Assembly (NCBI GenBank): GCA_011389535.1
Contig: JAABUE010000008.1
Location: forward strand, 1-41,953
Source of the DNA: Anaerolineales bacterium
GTDB taxonomy: Bacteria; Chloroflexota; Anaerolineae; Anaerolineales; Villigracilaceae
Direction of reading: 5' to 3'
DNA: 41,953 nucleotides
Positions 1 through 38,780 of the stretch are shown one piece after another. The notes beneath the pieces are model-generated. The model saw only the letters and a program-made list of their open reading frames with translations. It was not told the DNA's origin and did not search any database. The stretch's first letter is position 1, and each line of letters begins with the position of its first letter. The position numbers and the translations under genes are program-made.

Positions 1-18
1 TTATCTAATCCAACTCAT

Positions 19-225
19 CGAACGCCCCCGATTGTTACGCTCCGCGAACCCTAATCCCGTCGGGGCCGCCAAAGTTGAAACGAAAAAACCGAGTAAAAAA
101 CTCGGTTTTTTCGTTATTTTATGCCATTTTTCGGGCGAAAATTGGCATGTCTTCTTGTTACGCTCCGCGAGTTCAATAAATTGCTGTTATTTATCGGTGC
201 CGCGATTGGGCTCATTTATTTACGT
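19..225. repeat. Structured dispersed repeat, copy 1: 16-nt direct repeats flanking two hairpins
   Basis: TTGTTACGCTCCGCGA at 32-47 and 155-170; perfect 13-bp stem 81-93/101-113 (CGAAAAAACCGAG/CTCGGTTTTTTCG); second hairpin about 121-148; homologous to 31846-32055. Confidence 0.75.
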
Positions 226-339
226 TCTGCAAACTGAAAAATTGCCATATCTCCCCGACATGCATATCGCTTAGGTACATATACATCAACAGAAACAAGC
301 TACGGTGAAACAAAGGTATTTGATTAAGATGGTTTTTGA

Positions 340-3024
340 TTAGAACGGAGCGACGGGATCCAGTTCCAGTTCAAGCCGCCAACAATCTTCTTCTCTGTGG
401 GAGGTAAAATTGAATTTCATGGACAAGTTGAGCATAGAAGCGTTGTCTTCTAAGACGTACGCATACACCTTCTTGATCCCGCGCGCCTGGGCAATCTCTA
501 AAATATAGCGGGTCATGACGGTGCCCAATCCATGTTTTTGCCACGGATCGCCGACCACAATGGCGTATTCGGCTGTCTCGTTATAGGGATCGGCGGTTAG
601 CCTGACAACGCCGGCCATGCGTTTCCTGCCCCGTTCGTTCAGTTCGGCGATGATGGCTATCTCGCGGTCGTAATCGATCTGGGTATAACGTGCCAGCATT
701 TCGTGCGATTCCTTGACCGGCGCGAAAAAACGGAACCGCCTGGTTTCAGGCGACAGCGTTTTGAACAATTCTTCTTGCAGCGGCTCATCTTCCGGCCGAA
801 TGGGCCGGAGTAGCACCTGTCTGCCACGCCGGATCAGGACGGTCCGCTCGTACTCGCTGGGGTAGGGGCAGATCACCATGTGGGAGAACGGTTTGACACT
901 CTTCCCGGCAACGGTTTCATCCAAGATGATCTTGGCATCCAGGACGATGCCGCCGAGTTCGTCCACCGCAAATGGGTCGAGGTCCACTTCGCTGATCTCG
1001 GGGAAGTCCATGATTAGATAAGCAAATTTGTACAGGAGGAACTGGATCGCGGCCACATCCACAGCTGGCGTGCCACGGTAGCCTTTCAACAGAGTCGCGA
1101 TTTTGGTCCCGTCGATGAGCTGCTGGGCCAGGGCCATATTCAACGGTGGGATACCGATGTTCGTATCCTTGAAGACATCCACTGCCACACCGCCCATCCC
1201 AAATACGATTACTGGTCCGAAGATGGGGTCTTTCTTCGAGCCGATCAGTAGCTCGTGCCGTTTTTCGATCATTTCCTGCACGTACACCCCTAGGATTCGC
1301 GCGTCCGGCGCCCTGGCGCGCACGGCCTCAATGATCCGGTCGTAGGCCGGATGGATTTCCTCTTCCGATTGGATGTCCGCGATGACGCCTCCAAAGTCTC
1401 TTTCATAGATGATGTCCGGCGAGACTACCTTCAAGACAACCGGGAACCCGAACTGCGCGGCCAGGGCCCGGACTTCGGGCAGGCTCTTCGCCAAATCCCC
1501 CTTGGGGACCGGGATGTCGTAATTGACCAGTATCTGCTTGGCCTCCGGCGCCGTCAGGATGGTCCTGCCGGACGAGGCGATCTCTTCGATAATTTTCCTG
1601 TTCGCAGCCATATGAGGCGCGAATGCATGTGGGATGGTCGCAGGTGTTTCGGTGAGCAGGCGCAGGTTGCGTTGGTACTCAACCATGTTCAGGAACGACC
1701 TAACCGCATCTTCCGGTTTCTCGTAGGCCGGAATTTTGCCTTGCACGAGAATTCGCCGGCCTTCTGCCACGTCGTCCTCGCCCATGAATGAAGCAAATAC
1801 GTTTTTGTAAGCATCCTTGGCGTTTTCCACCAAAACCCTGGCCACGCCGGTTGCGTCGGTCATCGCCTGGGGTGTAAGAATGGCCAGGATGCCGTCCACG
1901 TTCGGATCACGCAGGCAGGCTTTTAGCGCGATCCGGTAGCGGTCCGGTCCGGCATCAGCGAGCATGTCTACCGGGTTGGCCCGGCTCCAGAACGGGGGCA
2001 TATGTGCGTCCAAGCTGCGCAGCGTTTCAGGAGAAAGCTCTGCCAGTTCCCCCTTCTGGTCGATGAGGGCATCGGTGGCGATCACACCCGGACCACCGGC
2101 GTTGGTGATGATCGCCAACCGGTTCCCGGTCGGCCGCCGTTGCATGGACAGGTTCTTGGCGCAATCGAACAGCTCGGTAATGCTGCTCACACGCAGCACC
2201 CCGGCGCGCTTGAAGGCGGCATCGAAAATCTGATCCTTGCCGGTGATGCTGCCTGTGTGGAATAGCGCAGCTTTGGCGCCCTCCTGGCTGCGGCCCACCT
2301 TGAGTACGATGATCGGTTTGGTGCGTGCAAAGCTCCTGGCCGCGCTCATGAACCTGCGCGCCTGGGTCAGGGTTTCCATGTAAATCAGGATCGCTTTGGT
2401 ATCTGGGTCGTTCCCAAAATAATCAATCAGGTCGTGAAAGCCGATATCGAGCATCTCCCCAACAGAGACGAAATAGGAAAAGCCGACATGTTCCTTGACC
2501 GACCAGTCCAGGACCGCGCTGCACAGGGCGCCGCTCTGGGAGATGAACGCCATGCCGCCTTTGTACGGTATCTTGCGGGAAAAACTGGCATTGAGGTTTA
2601 AAGTTGGACGGATGAAGCCTAGACAGTTGGGACCAAGAAGCGCCATGCCGCTCGCTTCGACTGCCCCCCGGAGTTGGTCCACCAGCCGGTTGCCCTCTTC
2701 TCCCGCTTCGGAAAACCCCGCCGATATCACCACGGCAGCCAAGGCCCCACAAGCGATGCACTCGTTTACCACATCCGGAACAATTGGAGCCCGTGTGGCA
2801 ATGATTGCCAAGTCGATCCGTTGAGGCAGGGCGGTCAGATTAGGATAGGTTTTCACCCCTTGCACGAGCTCCCGATTTGGATTGACCGGATAGACCGTTC
2901 CGGAATACCCGTTTGTGGTCAGGTTTCTGAAAAGGGAGTAGCCCACCTTCCCTGGTAAGTCAGACGCTCCGATCACTGCGATGGATCTGGGATTGAATAA
3001 AGTATGCAACTGCCTGGCATTCAT
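340..3024 (-). CDS. ADP-forming acyl/acetyl-CoA synthetase with C-terminal GNAT domain (Pat/Acd-like)
   Basis: ORF 340..3066; start likely MNARQLHTLFNPRSIAVIGAS at 3024; CoA-binding N-terminus, ATP-grasp middle, C-terminal GNAT-like segment (LRPIRPEDEP...GDPWQKHGLGTVMTRYILEIA). Confidence 0.88.
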   Translation of the reverse strand: MNARQLHTLFNPRSIAVIGASDLPGKVGYSLFRNLTTNGYSGTVYPVNPNRELVQGVKTYPNLTALPQRIDLAIIATRAPIVPDVVNECIACGALAAVVISAGFSEAGEEGNRLVDQLRGAVEASGMALLGPNCLGFIRPTLNLNASFSRKIPYKGGMAFISQSGALCSAVLDWSVKEHVGFSYFVSVGEMLDIGFHDLIDYFGNDPDTKAILIYMETLTQARRFMSAARSFARTKPIIVLKVGRSQEGAKAALFHTGSITGKDQIFDAAFKRAGVLRVSSITELFDCAKNLSMQRRPTGNRLAIITNAGGPGVIATDALIDQKGELAELSPETLRSLDAHMPPFWSRANPVDMLADAGPDRYRIALKACLRDPNVDGILAILTPQAMTDATGVARVLVENAKDAYKNVFASFMGEDDVAEGRRILVQGKIPAYEKPEDAVRSFLNMVEYQRNLRLLTETPATIPHAFAPHMAANRKIIEEIASSGRTILTAPEAKQILVNYDIPVPKGDLAKSLPEVRALAAQFGFPVVLKVVSPDIIYERDFGGVIADIQSEEEIHPAYDRIIEAVRARAPDARILGVYVQEMIEKRHELLIGSKKDPIFGPVIVFGMGGVAVDVFKDTNIGIPPLNMALAQQLIDGTKIATLLKGYRGTPAVDVAAIQFLLYKFAYLIMDFPEISEVDLDPFAVDELGGIVLDAKIILDETVAGKSVKPFSHMVICPYPSEYERTVLIRRGRQVLLRPIRPEDEPLQEELFKTLSPETRRFRFFAPVKESHEMLARYTQIDYDREIAIIAELNERGRKRMAGVVRLTADPYNETAEYAIVVGDPWQKHGLGTVMTRYILEIAQARGIKKVYAYVLEDNASMLNLSMKFNFTSHREEDCWRLELELDPVAPF

Positions 3025-3156
3025 GATTAATACCGCAACCAGATTAAATTGTAGGGTAGAAATCAATTCTTTACTTGAAATTTAGCAGGAATACCCTACA
3101 GCTTAAGGAAGTTGCGGCACTAACTGGTACCGCAACAACCTAACAATAGAATCTCA

Positions 3157-4557
3157 TCAAATGTTGATGGGAATTCCCTCCGCTCCATGCGCTGCTTCCA
3201 TGAGCACCTCCGAAAGCGTCGGATGGGCGTGGACATTGCGGGCGATCTCGTGCGGAGTCAGTTCCAGCATACGCGCCAGGGTCAACTCGGGCAGCAACTC
3301 GGTCACTTCCGGGCCGACCATGTGCGCGCCCAGAATCTCCCCGTATTTTTCGTCTACCACCAACTTGATCCAACCGACAGCTTCTCCCAGGCCGAGCGCC
3401 TTGCCATTGGCCTGGAAGGGAAAACGGCCTACTTTCACGCCGTAGCCGCGCTCCTTTGCCTGCGCTTCAGTCAGGCCGAAGGAAGCCACTTGCGGTGAGC
3501 AATAGGTGGCGCGCGGCATCATCTCGTAATCCAGCGTGATGGTCTCCACTCCAGCGATGTGCTCGGCGGCGATGATGCCCATCGCCGAGCCGACGTGCGC
3601 CAGCATCAGTTTGCCGGTCACGTCGCCGATGGCCCAGATGCCGGGGACGCTGGTCTGCATCTTTTCATCCACTTCGATAAAGCCGCGCTCGTCCAGCTTG
3701 ACGCCCAATTCTTCCAGGCCGAATCCCTTTGAGTTCGGGCGGAACCCGATCGCGACCAGGGCCTGCTCGGCTTCGAGAACCGTTTCCTTACCTTCGGTGC
3801 TGACCGCCACCTTGACCCCCATCCCTATCGCTTCTACCGCCTCCACCTTATGGCCAACCAGCGACTTGATGCCGCGCTTGTCAAAAGCCCTTTTCAGCTC
3901 CTTCCCGACCTCTTCATCCTCCGTCGGGAGTAAGGTGGGAAGCATCTCGACGATGGTCACCTGCGCGCCGTAGGCGTTCCAGACGGTAGCAAACTCCACC
4001 CCGACTGCGCCCGCGCCGATGATGATGACCGATTTTGGCAGTCTCTCCTGGGTGATAGCTTCCAGGTAGGTGACAACGTTCCTCCCATCTACTTTCCAGG
4101 CCGGGGGAACCAGGGAAGAAGCGCCCGTTGCCACGATGATGTTTTTAGCGGACAGCTCTTTCGGTGCTTCTGTGGAGCCGTTGACGGAAACAGTTCCTAG
4201 CCCGGTCAGGTACGCCCTCCCCATGTAAACGTCGATTTTGTTCTTCTTCATCAGGAACCCGACGCCTTTGACCAGCCGGTCGGATACCTGCCGGCTGCGC
4301 TGTACAGCCGCACAGTAGTCCAGCTTGAGGTTGTCGAAGGAAAAGCCGAATTCCTGACCGCGCTCGCGCAAGGTATGGGCCAGTTCGGCGTTCTTGAGCA
4401 ATGCCTTGGACGGGATGCAGCCCACGTTCAGGCACACGCCGCCCAGCCACTGCTTGTCAACGATAGCGGTCTTCTGCCCCAACTGCGCCGCGCGGATGGC
4501 GGCCACATAGCCGCCGGGGCCTGCACCAATCACAATCACGTCATATTGTTCGGGCAT
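3157..4557 (-). CDS. lpdA: Dihydrolipoyl dehydrogenase (E3)
   Basis: [20 protein letters not shown] motif, redox-active [14 protein letters not shown]-terminal [13 protein letters not shown]. Confidence 0.96.
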
Positions 4558-4638
4558 AAAGTTTCTCCAAGGAATTACTCATACAAGCGACTTCAATCGC
4601 TCTTATTTGAATAAAAGAGTGTTCGTTAGTACAGTTTC

Positions 4639-4767
4639 ACCGGAGATAAACGAGGATGAACAAGGATTTTCTCGATGAACGCGGTCCCCTTGAGGACCTT
4701 TTCTCGGAATGCCCGATTTCAAAACGTTTATCGAATAGAGTAACGCTTATCTCCGTTCATCTCCGGT
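4639..4767. repeat. Imperfect palindromic REP/MITE-like element
   Basis: Left ACCGGAGATAAACGAGGATGAA (4639-4660) against right TTATCTCCGTTCATCTCCGGT (4747-4767), in the intergenic gap. Confidence 0.55.
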
Positions 4768-4799
4768 TTGTTTTTTGGGCTGCCGAAGGCTTGATCCGC

Positions 4800-5045
4800 T
4801 CAGACCTTTTGCGCCTGCAAGTAATGCAGGATCTCGCCCATCGTGTTGAGCTTGCCCATATCCTTCTCTGAGATGTCGATGTGCAGACGCTCGCTCAGGG
4901 CGATAAAGAAGTTCAGGGCATCGAACGAGTCGATGTCGAGGCCTTCGCGCAGGTTATCGTCCAGGTCGAGCGCGGCAGGGTCAGAGCCGAGGGCGATCTT
5001 GGCCAGTTCCGCGATGATGATGTCCTTCAGTTCACTCTCGTTCAT
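4800..5045 (-). CDS. Acyl carrier protein
   Basis: 80 aa acidic protein with phosphopantetheine site [12 protein letters not shown]; overlaps the E2 start. Confidence 0.88.
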
Positions 5046-6376
5046 AGCTTTTCTACCTCCTGCAGGTTACGGTTCAATGCTTCCAGGAACAGGCCACCTT
5101 TGTGACCGTCCGTGGCGCGGTGGTCGCCCGCCAGCGTGGCCGTCATCACCTTGCGAACCGACAGCGTGCCGTTCTCAGCCCAGGGTTGCTCGGTAATCTT
5201 GCCCAAGCCAACCAGGGCCACCTGGGGCGGGTAAATGACGCCGAAGACCTTCTCTACGCCCCGATCGCCCAGGCTGGTGACCACGATCGTGGAGTCTGTC
5301 AGCTCAGACGAGCGCAGCTTGTTGCTACGCGTGCGAGTGATCAGGTCGTTCATCGCATCGCGCAGTTCGTCCAGGGTCTTCATGTCCGTATCGTGGATGG
5401 CGGGGGTGATCAAGCCGCCCTGTCGCAGATTAATGGCAAAGCCGATATTGATGGCTTCGCTGACCTGGTGCTGGCCATCGATCCAGAAGCCATTCAGCTC
5501 GGGCACTTCGGTCAGCGACTTGGCCACAGCCTTGAGCAGCACCACCACAGGCAACAGGCGCTCACGGATAGGACGTTTCAGATTTTCTTCCTCCAGCCAG
5601 GCCAGCGCTTTGGTCATGTCGATGTTGGTTTCCATGTAGTAATGCGGGATCTCCCGGTTGGACTTGCTCATGGCGGCGGCAATGGCTGCGCGCATGGCAG
5701 ACTGGAAGTCGGTTGGCTTTTTGACTTCGGGGACAGGCTCAGTACTGGCTTCCACAGGCAGCGGGGCGACCTTTTCTACGGGTGGTGCCTGAGGCGGGAC
5801 TTCCGGGGGTCTGGCTGATACCGGTTCGGGAACCCTGACCGGTTCCGGAGCGAGCACCGGTTTCGCCTGCGCAGCGCCCTCGATATCCGACTTCTGGATG
5901 GCTCCGCCCGGACCAGTGCCATGAACTGTCGTCAGGTCTACGCCCAGGTCTTCTGCAATCCGGCGCGCCAGGGGCGAGATACGGATGCGATCCCCGCTGA
6001 CAGCGGGTTGCGCGATGGCGGCTTTCATCGCTTCTTGAACCACTTGCGCTGCTGGCTTTGCCGGTTCAACGACAACGGCCTCAGGTACTTTTACAGGTTC
6101 GGCAGCTTTTTGCGCGCTTGCCTTCTGGCGAAATTCTGCTTCCGAGGATATCGTCGCCAGCACATTCCCGACTGGCACCTCCTGCCCCGGCTGGTAGAAA
6201 ATTTCATCCAGTATGCCATTCTCGAAACATTCGATTTCTATGACGCCCTTGGCAGTCTCCACCGCAGCGATGATATCGCCGCGCTTGACGGGGTCGCCCG
6301 ACTTTACTTTCCATTCAACAAGGGTGCCGGCGTCCATATCGGCGCCCAGGCTTGGCATTTTGAATTCGGTCATCAC
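5042..6376 (-). CDS. pdhC: Dihydrolipoamide acyltransferase (E2 of pyruvate dehydrogenase)
   Basis: Lipoyl domain ([11 protein letters not shown]), E3/E1-binding domain ([16 protein letters not shown]), catalytic [13 protein letters not shown]. Confidence 0.95.
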
Positions 6377-7389
6377 AGCACCAACTTTCTGACGGCGGCC
6401 GCAATGGTCTCAGGTTGTGGGACAGCCGCTTCTTCCATGTGCTTGGAATAAGGCATGGGAACCTCGGAGGCGCACAGCCGGTCGACTGGCCGGTCCAGTT
6501 CATAGAACAAGTTTTCCATGATCCGCGCGCTGATCTCGGCAGCGAGACTGCCGCTGCGCCAGCCTTCTTCCACGATCAATACCCGGTGCGTCTTGGCCAC
6601 CGAGGCAAAGATCGTGTCGTTATCTAACGGCCGCAGTGTGCGCAGGTCGATCACCTCGGTGTCGATCTCTTCCTGGGCCAGGGTTTCGGCGGCGGTCATC
6701 GACTTCGGCAGGCAGGAACCGTAAGTGATCAGGGTCACATCCTTGCCCGGCCGGCGCACCTTGGCATGGTCAATGTCCACAGGGACCGGGGTGGCAGAGA
6801 CCATCTCGGTCATGTTGTACATCACCTGCTGCTCGAAGATCAGCACCGGGTCGGGGTCTTCCAGGGCCGGCCAGAGCATGCCACGCATGTCTTCCACGGT
6901 TCCCGGGGCCAGGACCTTGATGCCGGGGATGTGCGCGTACCAGCCTTCCAGGCTGTGAGCGTGCTGCGCGCCAAGCTGCCGCCCGGAGCCCGTGGCCATA
7001 CGGATGACCACCGGCACATTGAAAAGTCCGCCCGACATATGCAGGAGGGTGCCGGCGGTATTGAGGATCTGGTCCAATGCCAGCAGGCTGAAGTTCACGG
7101 TCATGATTTCCACGATTGGGCGCATCCCATTCATGCTGGCGCCAATGCCGATGCCGGCAATGGCCGACTCACTGAGAGGCATATCGCGGATTTTCTCGGG
7201 GCCAAACTCATCGAACAGCCCTTTACTGACGGCAAAGCAGCCGCCGTAGCGACCAACGTCGGCGCCCATCAGGAAGCAGCGCTCGTCACGCAGCATGGCT
7301 TCACGGATCGCCTGGCGCATCCCTTCCCGATAGGTCATTTTCACCAGTTGCTGGGGTTCAGCTATCACGTTCTGAGATGGGAGAGTCAT
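6373..7389 (-). CDS. pdhB: Pyruvate dehydrogenase E1 beta subunit
   Basis: Transketolase-like fold motifs, [29 protein letters not shown]... Confidence 0.95.
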
Positions 7390-8402
7390 GACAGGCTCCT
7401 TTCTGTGTAAACGAAGCGGGTGAGATCTTCCACCTCTTCCCAGGGAGAGTTCTCGGCAAAATCGACCGAATGCTGCACGACCGCAGCGACATCCGCCTCT
7501 ATGGCCTGGATCTCCCCATCCTCGATCAAATTATTCTCTTTGAGATAATTAGTGAATAAGATGATGGGATCACGTTTCTTGTGCTCCTCTACCTCTGCTT
7601 TTTCCCGGTACAGCTCGGCATCGAACATCGAGTGCGGGCGGAAGCGGTACGTAATCGCTTCGATGAAGTAAGGACCTTTACCGGAGCGCAAGTAATCGCA
7701 GGCTTCATGGGCGGCTTGCTCCACCGCCAGGACATCATTCCCATCGATCTGGACGGCTTTGACGTTGTAGCTGGCCGCTTTTTCGGTCAGGTTGGGGTTC
7801 GATGAGTGATAGCGCAGCGCGGTCCCCATGCAGTACAGGTTGTTTTCGACAACGAACAGGGTTGGCGTTTGCCACAGTGCGCCCAGGTTAAGCGATTCGT
7901 GGAACTCGCCTTCCGCCACGGCGCCTTCCCCCAGGAAGCAGACGGTCACATTGGGTTTGTTCTGCATCTTATCGGCCAGGGCAATGCCGACTGCCAGTGG
8001 TAGGTGACTACAGACAATGGCGTTGCCGCCAAAGAAGCGATGCTCTTTATCGAACAGGTGCATCGAGCCGCCCCGGCCGCGGGCGCAGCCGGTCACCTTT
8101 CCGTACATCTCAGCCATGATCACGTCCGCGCTGACGCCACGGGCAAGGGCATGCCCGTGCTCGCGGTACGTTGCCACCACCGAGTCCTCGGGGGTGAGCG
8201 CCTGCATGACACCGGTAGCAATGGCCTCCTCACCAATGTAAAGGTGCAGGAAGCCCCGGATTTTAGAGGCCTGGTAGAGCTCGGCGGCCTTCTCTTCATA
8301 GCGCCGGATCAGGATCATCTGGTGCAACAAGTGATGATAGTGTTCCCTCTGCTCGGGCGACACTTTGTCCTTTTTTTCTTTTGTCACAGTTTTTGTACTC
8401 AT
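7386..8402 (-). CDS. pdhA: Pyruvate dehydrogenase E1 alpha subunit
   Basis: TPP-binding [54 protein letters not shown]. Confidence 0.95.
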
Positions 8403-10159
8403 TCTGCCGTCTCCAATGTGGACGTATCTCCCTCGGGCAGCCCAAGCTCGCGGGCCTTGAGCAAGCGCCGCATGATCTTGCCGCTGCGCGTCTTCGGGAG
8501 GTATTCCACGAATTCGATCTCTTTGGGAGCCACTGCCGAACCCAGCTTGATGCGTCCAAAGCCTTGTAGCTCCATGCGCAAGTCGTCGCTGGGATTGAAG
8601 CCGGGTTTGAGCGCTACAAAGGCCTTGACCAGCTCGCCGATGACCGGGTCAGGCTTGCCGATCACACCCACCTCGGCCACCGCAGGGTGCTCCATCAGGG
8701 CGCTCTCGACTTCGAACGGGCCCACCATATGCCCGGCGGTCTTGATGATATCGTCGGCGCGGCCGATGAACCAGAAGTAGCCGTCTTCGTCCCGTTCCGC
8801 CAGGTCACCGGTGATGTACCAGCCGTCCACGAAGCATTTCTTATAACGATCTTCGTCATTCAGGTACGTACGGAACATGGAGGGCCAGCCCGGCTTGAGC
8901 GCCAGTTCGCCTTCCACGTTCGGCCTGGTCTCGACCTCCACCTTGCCCCCCTCCAGCTTATGGATGATGGCAGGCTCGATCCCCGGCAGCGGCCGGCCCA
9001 TCGAACCGGGGCGGATATCCATAACACTGTAGTTCGAGATCATGATGCCGCCAGTCTCGGTCTGCCACCAGTTATCATGGATCAAAAGGTGGAGCATTTC
9101 TTTGCCCCACACCACCGCTTCGGGATTCAATGGCTCGCCCACGCTGGCCGAGAAGCGTAAGTGACTTAAGTCATAAAGCTCGCGCGGTTTCATGTCCAGC
9201 CGCATCAAGCGGCGGATGGCGGTGGGCGCGGTGTACCAGACAGTCACTTTTTGGTCCTGCAGGATGGTATACCAGCGCTCGGCATCGAATTCCGCTTCAT
9301 CCACGATGTTGGTGATGCCGTGCAGCAGCGGGGCGATAACACCGTACGAGGTGCCGGTCACCCAGCCAGGGTCTGCGGTGCACCAGAAAATGTCGTCATC
9401 GTGCAGGTCCAGGGCGTACCTGGCGGTCATATAGTGCACCATCACAGCCTTATGCACGTGTACGGCGCCTTTCGGCATGCCGGTGGTGCCACTGGTGAAG
9501 TGCAGGCAGGACATATCTTCCGGGTCGGTCGCCGGGATGGTGAATTCGGGCGATGCCTTGGCCATCAGTTTTGGCAATGAAAGTACGTTCTCCTGGAGGT
9601 CTTCCTCCACATCCGCCAGCAAAACGTATTTCAATTCCGGCAGTCTGTCCCAGATGCCTACGATCTTCCTCTTGTATTGCATCTTGGTTGTTACCAGCAC
9701 CTTGGCCTCGCTGCGGAACAGGCGCTGGTAGACCGGCTCAGCCCCAAAAGCGGAAAACAGCGGGCAGAACACGCTGACGTTCTTCAGCGCGCCCAGCGCA
9801 GCGATGTAAAGCGCAGGGATGCGGCCTGCCAGGACAGCGACCCGGTCGCCCTTCCCCACACCGAGCGTACGAATGAGATTGGCAAACCGGTTGGTTTGCT
9901 CTTTCAGGTCTCCATACGTAAAATCAATGATTCCCCCATCTTTGCCGAGCCAGCGCAGAGCGAGCTTATCTTTCTTCGGCCCTGCGGCGTGGCGGTCAAT
10001 GGCTTCATAAGCGATGTTGATTCCAGTGCCGTTGGGTAAGCCATCTAACTCCTGCAGAATAGAATCCCAGGAGAACTCTGAGTATGTTTGCTCGTAGTTT
10101 TTGAGGTTAGGAGGCACGGACCAATCGTCTGGAACCTTCTTGATCTGTTTGAATTCCAT
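8399..10159 (-). CDS. acsA: AMP-forming acetyl-CoA synthetase-like ligase
   Basis: [18 protein letters not shown] and WWQTETGG motifs; C-terminal [15 protein letters not shown]. Confidence 0.93.
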
Positions 10160-10958
10160 AGGTCCTTCTTTATTAAATTTGCAGGTACCCTTTCAAAAAG
10201 AGGGGGGAAGTGGGGCGCGCCCCACACCCCTATTGATTGAAAAGATACGATTGCAGCTATCTGCAGTTGGTCAGTCCGTGCGTTAGATACTTTGCGCGGC
10301 CTTCCTTTGGCGTTTTACCAACTGAAGTTCAGGAATCGACCTCGCAGCCAGATCCGGGGATTCTCCTATATCCCGTGAATCTGGGGATGAAAATCAAGGC
10401 TCCTTGTAAACAAAAAACGGCCTCCGTACTCTATCCAGAGAGAGCAGTAATGCGGGCGGTCTGGGTAGAGGGGAGCACCGGTGAATAGGACTTGTCGCCG
10501 GGCCGATGAAGGTGTTCTGATTCTCGTTCATGATTGCCTCAAGCTAGCTCGATATGGCAGCGAAGAGAGTATTCCTCAACGGTTATCCCGTTCATGAAGT
10601 GATTGGGAGGAGCAAATGAGTTTCTTTAGTTTAGTATTTCGTGAATGGCTTGACCTCCATTTTCCGCCGCCGTGGCATGGACTTAATCATTCCTCGTTCC
10701 CAGGCCCGGCGACAAAAAATGCCATAGACATGTTGTCTACGGCATCGATGAAATTGCAATGTATCAACCTGAAAGCAGAGACCGTCTTAGTTATAGCTGC
10801 GACGAATCTAGATTGTGATTAATTTCATTATAGGGTGAATGGCATGCGTTTTAATCTGCATTTCATCAGGGGAAAGGGGTGACATTCATCCTGTCCTTTC
10901 CATAGACAAGTGCAACTGCCTGCATAAATTTGTCGAAGTGTTCGCCACTGTTGCTAAC

Positions 10959-31641: not shown

Positions 31642-31839
31642 TTGTTTCTGCTTCAAAAAATTCGCGCGGTTCGCAATGTGGAAATCCTGGAAAAGTGCGC
31701 GCTGGCCTACCTGCTGGCGATCTGCAGCGAACGCAAGATCAGCAAAATCCCTCTGGCTGTGCGCGAGGTCGCGTTTGCAAAACTACGTCGGGATCAAAAG
31801 AAAATCGAGCAGGGCAAACGTCTCACGAGTGGAGAATAA
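31642..31839 (+). pseudogene. Possible C-terminal remnant of a class II aldolase-like protein
   Basis: IRAVRNVEILEKCALAYLLAICSERKISKIPLAVREVAFAKLR resembles aldolase/epimerase C-termini; no N-terminal portion present. Confidence 0.4.
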
Positions 31840-31845
31840 TAATGA

Positions 31846-32055
31846 GCGAACGCCTCCGTTTGTTACGCTCCGCGAACCCTAATCCCGTCGGGGCCGCCAA
31901 AGTTGATATGAAAGAACCGAGTAGAAATACTCGGTTCTTTTGTTATTTAATGCCAATTTTAGCCTTAGAATTGGCTTATCTCCTTGTTACGCTCCGCGAG
32001 TTAAATAGAAAGTTGTTTTTTATCGGGATCGCGGTTAGGCATATCTATTGTAGGC
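31846..32055. repeat. Structured dispersed repeat, copy 2
   Basis: TTGTTACGCTCCGCGA at 31860-31875 and 31984-31999; perfect 13-bp stem 31911-31923/31928-31940 with GAAA loop; homologous to 19-225. Confidence 0.75.
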
Positions 32056-32185
32056 CGGCAACATAGAATCTCAGATCAGAGAATATAACTCTTCATCAGG
32101 CATTCCATCCTGTTTTTGGCAACTGGCGGTATATTTGATGGATACCGCATAGAGCAGGTTTTGCATACATGTTTATAATTGATCT

Positions 32186-34909
32186 ATGGCTGCACCAATT
32201 TTAGCTACTAAACTTTACGCGCCCCCGCCCCGGGTTAAAGTTGTCCTCCGCCCGCGCCTGATCGATCGCTTGAACGAGGGTTTGGCGATGGGTTGCAAAC
32301 TGACGCTCATCTCCGCTTCCGCCGGCTTTGGCAAGACCACCCTGGTCGGCGAGTGGATTGCCAGTTGTGGCAGGCCGGTTGCGTGGTTGTCGCTGGATGA
32401 AGGGGACAACGATCCGGTGCGTTTCATCTCTTACCTGGTAGCGGCATTACAAACCGTCAAGGCGGGAATTGGTGAGGGGGTGTTGGCTGCAATCCAATCC
32501 CCTCAGCCGCCGCAAGCCGAAGTAATTTTGACGGCACTGCTCAACGAAATTTCCATTATCCCCGAGCACTTTCTCCTCATCCTTGACGACTATCACGCGC
32601 TTGATTCCCAAGCAGTTGATCAAGCCCTGGCCTTCCTGGTCGAACACCAGCCGCCGCAGATGCATCTGGTCATCGCCAGTCGTGAAGACCCACCCCTGCC
32701 CCTGGCGCGTCTACGCGCCCGCGGCCAACTCACCGAGCTGCGCGCTGCCGACCTGCGTTTCACTCCTACAGAGGCTGCCGACTTCCTCAACCGGATGATG
32801 GGATTAAACCTTTCCGAAGCCGAGATTACCGCTCTGGAAGCCCGCACCGAAGGCTGGATCGCCGGTTTGCAAATGGCCGCTCTCTCCATGCAGGGGCAAT
32901 CCGATCCCGCCAAGTTCATTCAATCCTTCACCGGCAGCCACCGCTTTGTGTTGGACTACCTGCTTGAGGAGGTTTTGCAGCGCCAGCCCGTCAAGGTTCA
33001 GACTTTTCTGCTGCACACATCCATCCTTGACCGCCTGTGCGGGCCGCTGTGTGACGCTGTTTTGGAATCTCCCTCTGCTTCCGGGCAGGAAACTCTGGAA
33101 TATCTCGAGCGCGCCAACCTGTTTATCGTCCCCCTGGACAATGAGCGGCGCTGGTACCGCTACCACCATCTTTTTGGAGAATTGCTGCGCCAGCGGCTTG
33201 GCAAGCCAAAGGAACTTCCTGACTATCACCTGCGTGCCAGCGTTTGGTATGAGGCCAACGGCGACCTGGTCGAAGCCTTCCACCACGCCCTTGCGGCTGG
33301 CGATTTTGAGCGAGCAGCGCGCCTGGCCGAAGTGGCCTGGCAGGGCATGGATCGCAGTTTCCAGACCGCTGCCTGGCTTGGCTGGGTGAAAAAACTACCC
33401 AATGCGGTAGTTTGCTCCAGGCCCAGGTTATGTATGCAGCTTGGATGGGCCTTTTCGGATGTCGGAGACCTGGAATCGAGTGAAACCTACCTGCAAAACG
33501 CAGAGCGCGCCCAGGCTGGCGCGATGGATCAGGATGAGTCAAAGTCCTTGCCGGGGACCATTGCCCTGATCCGCGCCGGCAACGCCCAGATACTGGGGGA
33601 CCTGGCCGAAACGGTGAAATACGCCGAGCTGTCTATTCAGCTCATTCCCGAGGACGATAGTTACCTCCGCGCCTCGGCCGCCATCACACTGGGATTTACC
33701 CAATGGGCCACCGGTAATCTGGAAGCATCCCTGCGAGCCATGAACGCCTGGATGGAGGATATGCAACGATTGGGCAACCAGGTGTTTGTGATTGCCAGCG
33801 CCTTTGCCGTGGCTGATATGCAGGTGATATTGGGTCACCTGGGTGAAGCCGAAAAGGCCCTCCGGCAGGCCATCCAACAAGCCGTTGCGCAGGGGCAGGA
33901 GGCAGAGTCTGTGACCGCCCATCATCACCTGGGGTTGGCCCTGCTGGCTCACGAACGGGGCGATGATGCGGCTACAACGGAGCATCTGCAAACCGCCGCT
34001 GATCTGGGCCAACGCACCACCCTGGTGGACTGGTCTCACCGCTGGAACCTGGCCCAGGCCCGGCTCAAAGAATCCGCCGGGGAGTGGGATGCGGCGCTCG
34101 AATTGATTGATGAGGCCAGGCGGGTCTACGTCAAAAACCCGGTTCCCATCCTGCAACCGGTCGAAGCCCACAAGGCGCGGGTCCATCTCAAACAAGGACG
34201 GCTGGATAAGGCTCAAGCCTGGGTGAGGGAGCGGAGTATTTCAACGGGGGATGAGGTCCGCTACCTGGACGAGTACGAACATCTCACCCTGGCCCGAGTG
34301 CGACTGGCCGAAGGTTCCTTCGCCGGGGTCGGCGATTTGCTGGAACGCCTGCTGGCATTGGCAGAAACGCAAAAACGGACAGGGAGCGTGATCGAAATCC
34401 TGCTGACACAGGCGCTTGTCCATCAGGCGCAGAGCAACCAGCCCCAGGCCCTTACCGCGCTGGAACGCGCCCTGGCGTTGGCTGAGCCAGAGGGCTACCT
34501 GCGCATTTTTGTGGATGATGGCGAAGCGATGCGATTGTTGCTGTTGGATTTCCGATCGATGATTGAAAAACAGGGACGCTCTAACATTCACCCCCTGTTC
34601 AGTTATCTAAATAGACTTCTGGCTGCTTTCCCGGAATCGATGGAAGTCATGCCTCAATCCAAAATCGCAAGTCCAAAACACTTGCACCTGGCGCAAGTGC
34701 AGGTGTCGAAAATGATTGAACCTTTGAGCGAACGCGAGCTGGAAGTGCTCAAGCTGCTGCGAAGCGAATTAAGCGGCCCAGAAATTGCCCAACAACTGAT
34801 CGTGTCGCTCAACACCTTGCGCACCCACACCAAAAACATTTTCAACAAACTGGGGGTCAACAACCGCCGGGCGGCCATCCGCCGCGCCGAGGAACTCGAT
34901 CTATTCTAG
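32186..34909 (+). CDS. MalT-like LuxR-family ATP-dependent transcriptional regulator
   Basis: N-terminal LIDRLNEGLAMGCKLTLISASAGFGKTTLVGEW P-loop, TPR-like middle, C-terminal LSERELEVLKLLRSELSGPEIAQQLIVSLNTLRTHTKNIFNKLGVNNRR. Confidence 0.93.
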   Translation: MAAPILATKLYAPPPRVKVVLRPRLIDRLNEGLAMGCKLTLISASAGFGKTTLVGEWIASCGRPVAWLSLDEGDNDPVRFISYLVAALQTVKAGIGEGVLAAIQSPQPPQAEVILTALLNEISIIPEHFLLILDDYHALDSQAVDQALAFLVEHQPPQMHLVIASREDPPLPLARLRARGQLTELRAADLRFTPTEAADFLNRMMGLNLSEAEITALEARTEGWIAGLQMAALSMQGQSDPAKFIQSFTGSHRFVLDYLLEEVLQRQPVKVQTFLLHTSILDRLCGPLCDAVLESPSASGQETLEYLERANLFIVPLDNERRWYRYHHLFGELLRQRLGKPKELPDYHLRASVWYEANGDLVEAFHHALAAGDFERAARLAEVAWQGMDRSFQTAAWLGWVKKLPNAVVCSRPRLCMQLGWAFSDVGDLESSETYLQNAERAQAGAMDQDESKSLPGTIALIRAGNAQILGDLAETVKYAELSIQLIPEDDSYLRASAAITLGFTQWATGNLEASLRAMNAWMEDMQRLGNQVFVIASAFAVADMQVILGHLGEAEKALRQAIQQAVAQGQEAESVTAHHHLGLALLAHERGDDAATTEHLQTAADLGQRTTLVDWSHRWNLAQARLKESAGEWDAALELIDEARRVYVKNPVPILQPVEAHKARVHLKQGRLDKAQAWVRERSISTGDEVRYLDEYEHLTLARVRLAEGSFAGVGDLLERLLALAETQKRTGSVIEILLTQALVHQAQSNQPQALTALERALALAEPEGYLRIFVDDGEAMRLLLLDFRSMIEKQGRSNIHPLFSYLNRLLAAFPESMEVMPQSKIASPKHLHLAQVQVSKMIEPLSERELEVLKLLRSELSGPEIAQQLIVSLNTLRTHTKNIFNKLGVNNRRAAIRRAEELDLF

Positions 34910-38477: not shown

Positions 38478-38506
38478 ATCGGAAGGCAGAGGCTGCGGCA
38501 TTATAA

Positions 38507-38780
38507 TTGATCTATGTCTGCACTAAATACGGTTCACCGGATGTCCTTCAGCTCCAGGAGGTGGCAAAACCCGCTCCCCAGGATGATGAAGTCTTGATCA
38601 GAGTCGACGCGGCATCGGTAAATGCGCGAGACTGGCGTTTCATGAGAGCAAAACCGTTCTTTATCCGCCTGGTGCCAGGAGGCTTCCTTCAACCCAAAAA
38701 CAAGATACTCGGGGCTGATCTAGCCGGACGGGTTGACTCAGTTGGCAGTAACGTCAGGCAGTTTAAGCCAGGCGATAGTC
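38507..38780 (+). pseudogene. Truncated third oxidoreductase paralogue
   Basis: IYVCTKYGSPDVLQLQEVAKPAPQDDEVLIRVDAASVNARDWRFMRAKPFFIRLVPGGFLQPKNKILGADLAGRVDSVGSNVRQFKPGD, then similarity is lost. Confidence 0.8.

Follow-up and report, generated by a model that had tools for sequence, protein, structure and literature searches.

A repeated two-hairpin element in an Anaerolineales contig corresponds to the 3' end of a tRNA-Asp gene with its terminator and likely borders a cargo island

An element with two hairpins occurs twice in the window, by which we mean the whole 41,953-nucleotide stretch of Anaerolineales DNA analyzed here, and it is neither a new RNA nor a transposase hairpin. Judged by its sequence, each copy is the 3' fragment of a tRNA-Asp gene, lacking the 5' half, together with the terminator of that gene. 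The DNA between the copies (positions 221-31847) is likely an integrase-less, CIME-like cargo island lying between attachment sites, with each copy joining successive islands at the tRNA-Asp 3' end. The element probably marks the places where metabolic gene blocks, here a 31-kb hydrogenase block, were spliced in.

This provides a sequence signature for the borders of gene islands in the Anaerolineae, a large and mostly uncultured group for which we found no published tRNA-Asp islands or FtsK-type integrative elements in the open-access literature. A complete hydrogenase/formate-hydrogenlyase-like operon lies as one block between the attachment sites, a possible route for the spread of fermentative energy metabolism. 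Furthermore, the covariation of the hairpins receives a simple explanation, since the terminator of the tRNA is carried along with each attachment copy.

Results

Organization and identity of the two copies

Copy 1 (20-220) and copy 2 (31848-32050) are 83% identical when aligned. They share an identical 47-nt core that includes the tRNA-Asp 3' end and that an earlier note on this DNA had missed, as it had the third palindrome, which begins with the second repeat. The 16-nt direct repeat TTGTTACGCTCCGCGA is found at 32-47 and 155-170 in copy 1 and at 31860-31875 and 31984-31999 in copy 2. The earlier note had placed the repeats of copy 2 124 nt apart and had described a two-hairpin layout kept in that copy, and both statements agree with our analysis, as both copies fold two hairpins between the repeats. 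With an expectation of 0.05, the window holds four occurrences of the repeat core TTACGCTCCGCGA. The remainder of the 2.6-Mb assembly has none, and no further full copy of the 203-nt element was found there either. Copy 1 is located at the contig edge, 20 nt from the end. The features are as follows:

11-31, plus strand: RE (right-end) sequence belonging to the preceding island; it reads CAACTCATCG..., is truncated by the contig start and resembles the RE of relatives, CAACT(T)CATCG-n15-GTTACGC
32-47, plus strand: repeat R1 of copy 1, TTGTTACGCTCCGCGA
53-70, plus strand: tRNA-Asp 3' end remnant of copy 1, matching the intact tRNA-Asp(GTC) of G001, a genome of the same genus, at 18/18 positions
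79-115, plus strand: hairpin 1 of copy 1, the predicted rho-independent terminator of tRNA-Asp
120-149, plus strand: hairpin 2 of copy 1, its stem not conserved in relatives
155-170, plus strand: repeat R2 of copy 1, at the left end of the likely cargo island
221-31847, no strand: likely cargo island between both attachment modules
31844-31859, plus strand: right-end sequence of the likely cargo island beside R1 of copy 2, aligning with copy 1 and placed like the RE of relatives
31860-31875, plus strand: repeat R1 of copy 2
31881-31898, plus strand: tRNA-Asp 3' end remnant of copy 2
31908-31943, plus strand: hairpin 1 of copy 2, the predicted terminator with an A-U to G-C compensatory change
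31952-31975, plus strand: hairpin 2 of copy 2, 64.6% paired over 19 modules
31984-31999, plus strand: repeat R2 of copy 2
31994-32034, plus strand: third palindrome, CCGCGA..TCGCGG
32186-34909, plus strand: MalT/LuxR-type regulator, the first gene right of copy 2

The sequence that follows the first repeat, AATCCCGTCGGGGCCGCC, is the 3' end of tRNA-Asp(GTC) in those relatives to which ARAGORN was applied, and it occurs only once per genome in most relatives having a match. The remnant of copy 1 comprises a portion of the T-loop, the 3' strands of the T-stem and of the acceptor, the discriminator G and CC. ARAGORN finds no tRNA in the window because only this 3' part is present. Neither the window nor its own assembly (65% complete) contains an intact tRNA-Asp with this end, and the head of the array is unseen. 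Hairpin 1, with its U-run, has the sequence features of the rho-independent terminator behind tRNA-Asp. Two other assignments were rejected: tRNA-Glu, a first guess from the acceptor sequence, because relatives give tRNA-Asp(GTC), and repeat R as a part of the tRNA anticodon arm, because the intact genes differ in sequence there.

Pairing and covariation of the stems

Between the two copies, the A-U to G-C double change claimed for stem 1 is real, and in addition the closing C-G pair of this stem becomes U-G and one U-A pair is added. In stem 2 a U.U mismatch is lost and a C-G pair becomes A-U. Shuffled sequences are far less stable than stem 1 (z about -7) and stem 2 (about -3.3), and this holds for each copy. 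When 19 aligned modules from four genera were compared, 91.9% of the cells of stem 1 were paired and both sides had changed in 5 of its 13 pairs, one of them being A-U in 8 sequences and C-G in 8, while stem 2 was 64.6% paired and mostly broken except for CC/GG and UUUU/AAAA, and palindrome 3 was 81.8% paired. The whole structure exceeds slid versions and shuffles in paired cells and in covariation score, with no excess in the number of pair types, and the relatedness of the sequences limits the weight of the shuffle comparison.

The earlier note had proposed selection on pairing, which the alignment supports for stem 1 but not for stem 2; likewise, the additional copies lacking covariation that it had set against its own proposal are found among the 19 modules for stem 2 and not for stem 1. 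The mismatch it saw repaired in stem 2 is indeed lost in copy 2, but the stem is not kept over the relatives, and this "repair" is particular to the lineage of the window. Stem 1, where a terminator is required, thus covaries genuinely, and stem 2 shows little covariation; the simple explanation is that the tRNA terminator travels with each attachment copy.

A structured regulatory or small RNA, or a riboswitch-like leader, conserved for its two hairpins would account for the strong folds of both copies and for the true covariation of stem 1. We consider it very improbable, however, given that stem 1 is the terminator behind tRNA-Asp in relatives, that stem 2 is not conserved, that the conserved unpaired sequence is the 3' end of a tRNA, and that Rfam families gave nothing above threshold in gathering and permissive runs.

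Contents and flanks of the island

The 31.6 kb between the copies is flanked on both sides (20-220 and 31848-32050) by modules of the attL/attR type, which carry the 3' end of tRNA-Asp and R repeats and are oriented alike. This DNA carries CoA-ligase and 2-oxoacid dehydrogenase genes, an ABC transporter, a two-component system, and a formate-hydrogenlyase/hydrogenase-4-like operon with HycI. All the large open reading frames of 221-31847 scanned with Pfam are metabolic, transport or regulatory, with no integration or transfer genes among them, and no match to the tyrosine integrase family (PF00589) is found on the contig of the window. The hydrogenase DNA has a patchy distribution, being found in 5 of 152 genomes of the family; it is 82-83% identical in a genome of another genus (G024) and absent from the same-genus G001. 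The GC content of the island (0.558) is unremarkable, which counts against the island reading, as do the missing intact tRNA-Asp, the position of copy 1 at the contig edge and the failure to find an integrase demonstrably active in its own genome.

Left of copy 2, a 63-aa open stretch (31648-31836) has no relative in any comparison locus and is possibly a decayed gene at the right end of the island. The MalT/LuxR-type regulator right of copy 2 is also the neighbor right of the remnant in G071. The right flank of the window was tried as conserved chromosome, and this failed, as the MalT-DUF6326-DUF4386 genes matched 57 of 152 genomes, mostly without nearby modules. A 26-nt direct repeat (92%) at 32173-32198 and 38501-38526 spans two start regions, that of the MalT-like gene and that of an alcohol dehydrogenase-like open reading frame that is truncated.

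Modules and islands in relatives

Repeat R joined to the fragment (GTTACGC..GC) was found in 7 of 150 relatives, the reversed control pattern giving 0. The GTDB collection gave 6 contigs with it, each bearing Chloroflexi/Chloroflexota, Anaerolineae or Anaerolinea in its title, and neither this combination nor the fragment with reversed R was found in viral contigs. A search for the fragment with GTTACGC 72 to 102 nt behind it matched 20 places, spread over 10 of 152 genomes of the family (most compared genomes being drafts), and the control matched none. The 19 aligned modules show a conserved order: RE (CAACTCATCG...), R1, tRNA 3' end, terminator, hairpin 2, R2 and an inverted piece of the T-stem. 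This piece, ACGAACCCGCGATC, forms the third palindrome with R2; in relatives this palindrome reads GCGGGTTCG..CGAACCCGC, an inverted piece of the T-stem of tRNA-Asp.

According to ARAGORN, a complete tRNA-Asp precedes 4 of the 20 modules (G166, G071, G094 and G189); R1 replaces it at most of the other places, and unrelated sequence does so at two (G210 and G110:C186). In three genomes an intact tRNA-Asp lies upstream of a fragment on the same contig and strand, at 10.6 kb (G071), 10.8 kb (G030) and 11.8 kb (G189), so that the intact tRNA is at one border and its 3' end is repeated at the other. The window itself shows the fragment type alone, with no intact tRNA border, and G023 has two fragments 5.8 kb apart. 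In genus g3, the DNA that begins within about 7 nt after an intact tRNA-Asp in G064 is about 77% identical to the DNA that follows the remnant in G083 and G103. G064 thus represents the empty site, with the fragments of G083 and G103 at the far end of insertions. In the window's own genus, the tRNA-Asp of G001 sits at a contig end.

On contigs with more than one module, 5-32 kb of cargo lies between them. Proteins scanned in the cargo of relatives include transporters, regulators, a two-component system, a STAND-WD40 protein and enzymes, and no integrase was found among those scanned between tRNA and fragment. The STAND NTPase with WD40 repeats (1272 aa; locus L160, 5356-9174, in G189:C86) is island cargo with a defence-type architecture. 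At least six R-tRNA fragment modules are present in G110, several contigs of which end near a module (loci L131-L137: C88, C92, C117, C160, C177, C194 and C156), and these modules probably form one or more tandem arrays.

Transposon ends of the IS200/IS605, REP or MITE type, recognized as single-strand hairpins, would also show hairpins and direct repeats and would be multi-copy in some genomes, as with the six modules of G110. Yet the IS200/IS605-like transposase whose recognition the earlier note had proposed to test was not seen among the Pfam-scanned genes of the window, nor was any other transposase, only two copies exist in their own genome, every copy has the same tRNA-Asp 3' end, and 5-32 kb of cargo separates modules on one contig. 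We give this origin hardly any credence. An integron-like array, with the R...R units as attC-like folded sites, deserves no more: the R1-R2 spacing of about 124 nt, the folded palindromes and the arrays with varied cargo recall such a system, but GTTACGC does not fit the attC core GTTRRRY, the core is a tRNA 3' end, the cargo consists of many genes and not of single cassettes, and no integron integrase was identified near the modules.

An excisionase-like gene and an FtsK-type element at tRNA-Asp

In G083, a 73-aa HTH protein of the excisionase family (TIGR01764, above cut-off) starts about 85 nt past tRNA-Asp. A search with it returned nine loci from 8 of 120 genomes, and each lies 60-150 nt behind the 3' end of tRNA-Asp with a reversed repeat of the GTAAC type. 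The tRNA is intact at three of the loci and a fragment at six. The sequence G[C/T]GTAAC was present within 14 nt in 7 of 56 distinct flanks of intact tRNA-Asp, a count and not a rate, since this set is enriched for the loci searched. In G083:C23 (L065/L094), the excisionase-like gene stands by itself, with tRNA-Asp on one side and a glutamate-1-semialdehyde aminotransferase-like gene on the other, and seems to lack its integrase.

Contig G080:C112 has the order tRNA-Asp, reversed R, xis, FtsK/SpoIIIE, actin-like gene, tyrosine recombinase, AAA_25, CHC2 and a second recombinase, and a second set of the element genes is found in G080:C118. Positions 1-10250 of the former (L115) hold a nearly complete integrative element of the FtsK type, located at tRNA-Asp and occurring outside the Actinobacteria. 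The first integrase of the G080 element is not close to either of the two integrase matches in the window's own genome (34% over 144 aa, and 24%).

Discussion

Each copy would link the right end of one island (RE-R1) to the tRNA-Asp 3' end and its terminator, and these in turn to R2 and the palindrome, with which the following island starts on its left. Therefore 221-31847 would be one cargo island between two such sites. The tyrosine integrase and excisionase encoded in the FtsK-type element may recombine a core in the T-arm and acceptor of tRNA-Asp, with the GTTACGC/GCGTAAC repeats as putative protein-binding sites, and may act in trans on cargo islands without an integrase of their own. Islands keeping the module could in this way be moved or accreted by the enzymes of the FtsK-type element, and the island of the window may have been acquired by the same route. 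Excision and the choice of the acting integrase we infer from sequence comparison. Also against this best explanation, the bases next to R1 in the window, GCGAACCC, differ from those of the tRNA, GCGGGTTC, and the crossover point is therefore not defined. Furthermore, a chimeric join could be present in the draft assembly.

Ordinary homologous recombination could have duplicated the tRNA-Asp 3' region segmentally, without site-specific integration, which would agree with cargo that lacks an integrase and with the nearly identical terminators at the two ends in G071. The sharp junction with GTTACGC beside the tRNA fragment is conserved in several genera, however, as are the left and right ends; this junction also carries an excisionase-like gene, and g3 has an empty site, all of which make such a duplication improbable. 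Returning to the cargo island, a broader and tentative proposal, which we would not favor at present, is an operon-scale, cassette-like capture in the Chloroflexota, in which the integrase and excisionase of FtsK-type elements would work in trans wherever a standard module (RE-R1-tRNA-Asp 3' end-terminator-R2 palindrome) is present, stringing, excising and exchanging metabolic blocks of 5-32 kb at one tRNA-Asp locus.

Comparison with known systems

AICEs have been reported as confined to the Actinomycetales (PMC3218068). G080:C112 resembles them in its FtsK/SpoIIIE translocase (PF01580), tyrosine integrase (PF00589), xis-like protein and tRNA 3' end site. Of the AICE replication proteins among the criteria of that work, RepSA, RepAM and Prim-Pol, however, neither RepAM (DUF3631) nor Prim-Pol was seen in it, and it carries an AAA_25 ATPase and a CHC2 zinc finger (DnaG zinc ribbon) instead. 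Tycheposons, described for Prochlorococcus and reported in Methylophilaceae (PMC10872708), are the nearest analogue as cargo islands, being tRNA-bounded and loaded with metabolic genes; they carry a tyrosine recombinase, whereas there is none inside the cargo island of the window, whose contig has no PF00589 match.

CIMEs keep attL and attR at their ends, lack integration and transfer genes, and are mobilized in cis after accretion with an ICE (PMC5704250); CIMEs and the tandem accretion of ICEs and IMEs at tRNA genes are described by Pavlovic et al. 2004, as reviewed in PMC5704250. Compared with CIMEs as that review outlines them, the islands described here differ in that many kinds of cargo share one module, including the tRNA terminator and the extra R2 palindrome, and in that the host belongs to the Chloroflexota; their mobilization would follow by analogy. 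Within the same outline, the likeness extends to cargo between retained attachment sites at a tRNA 3' end, to the absence of integration genes, to tandem arrays, and to a related autonomous element with an integrase at the same site.
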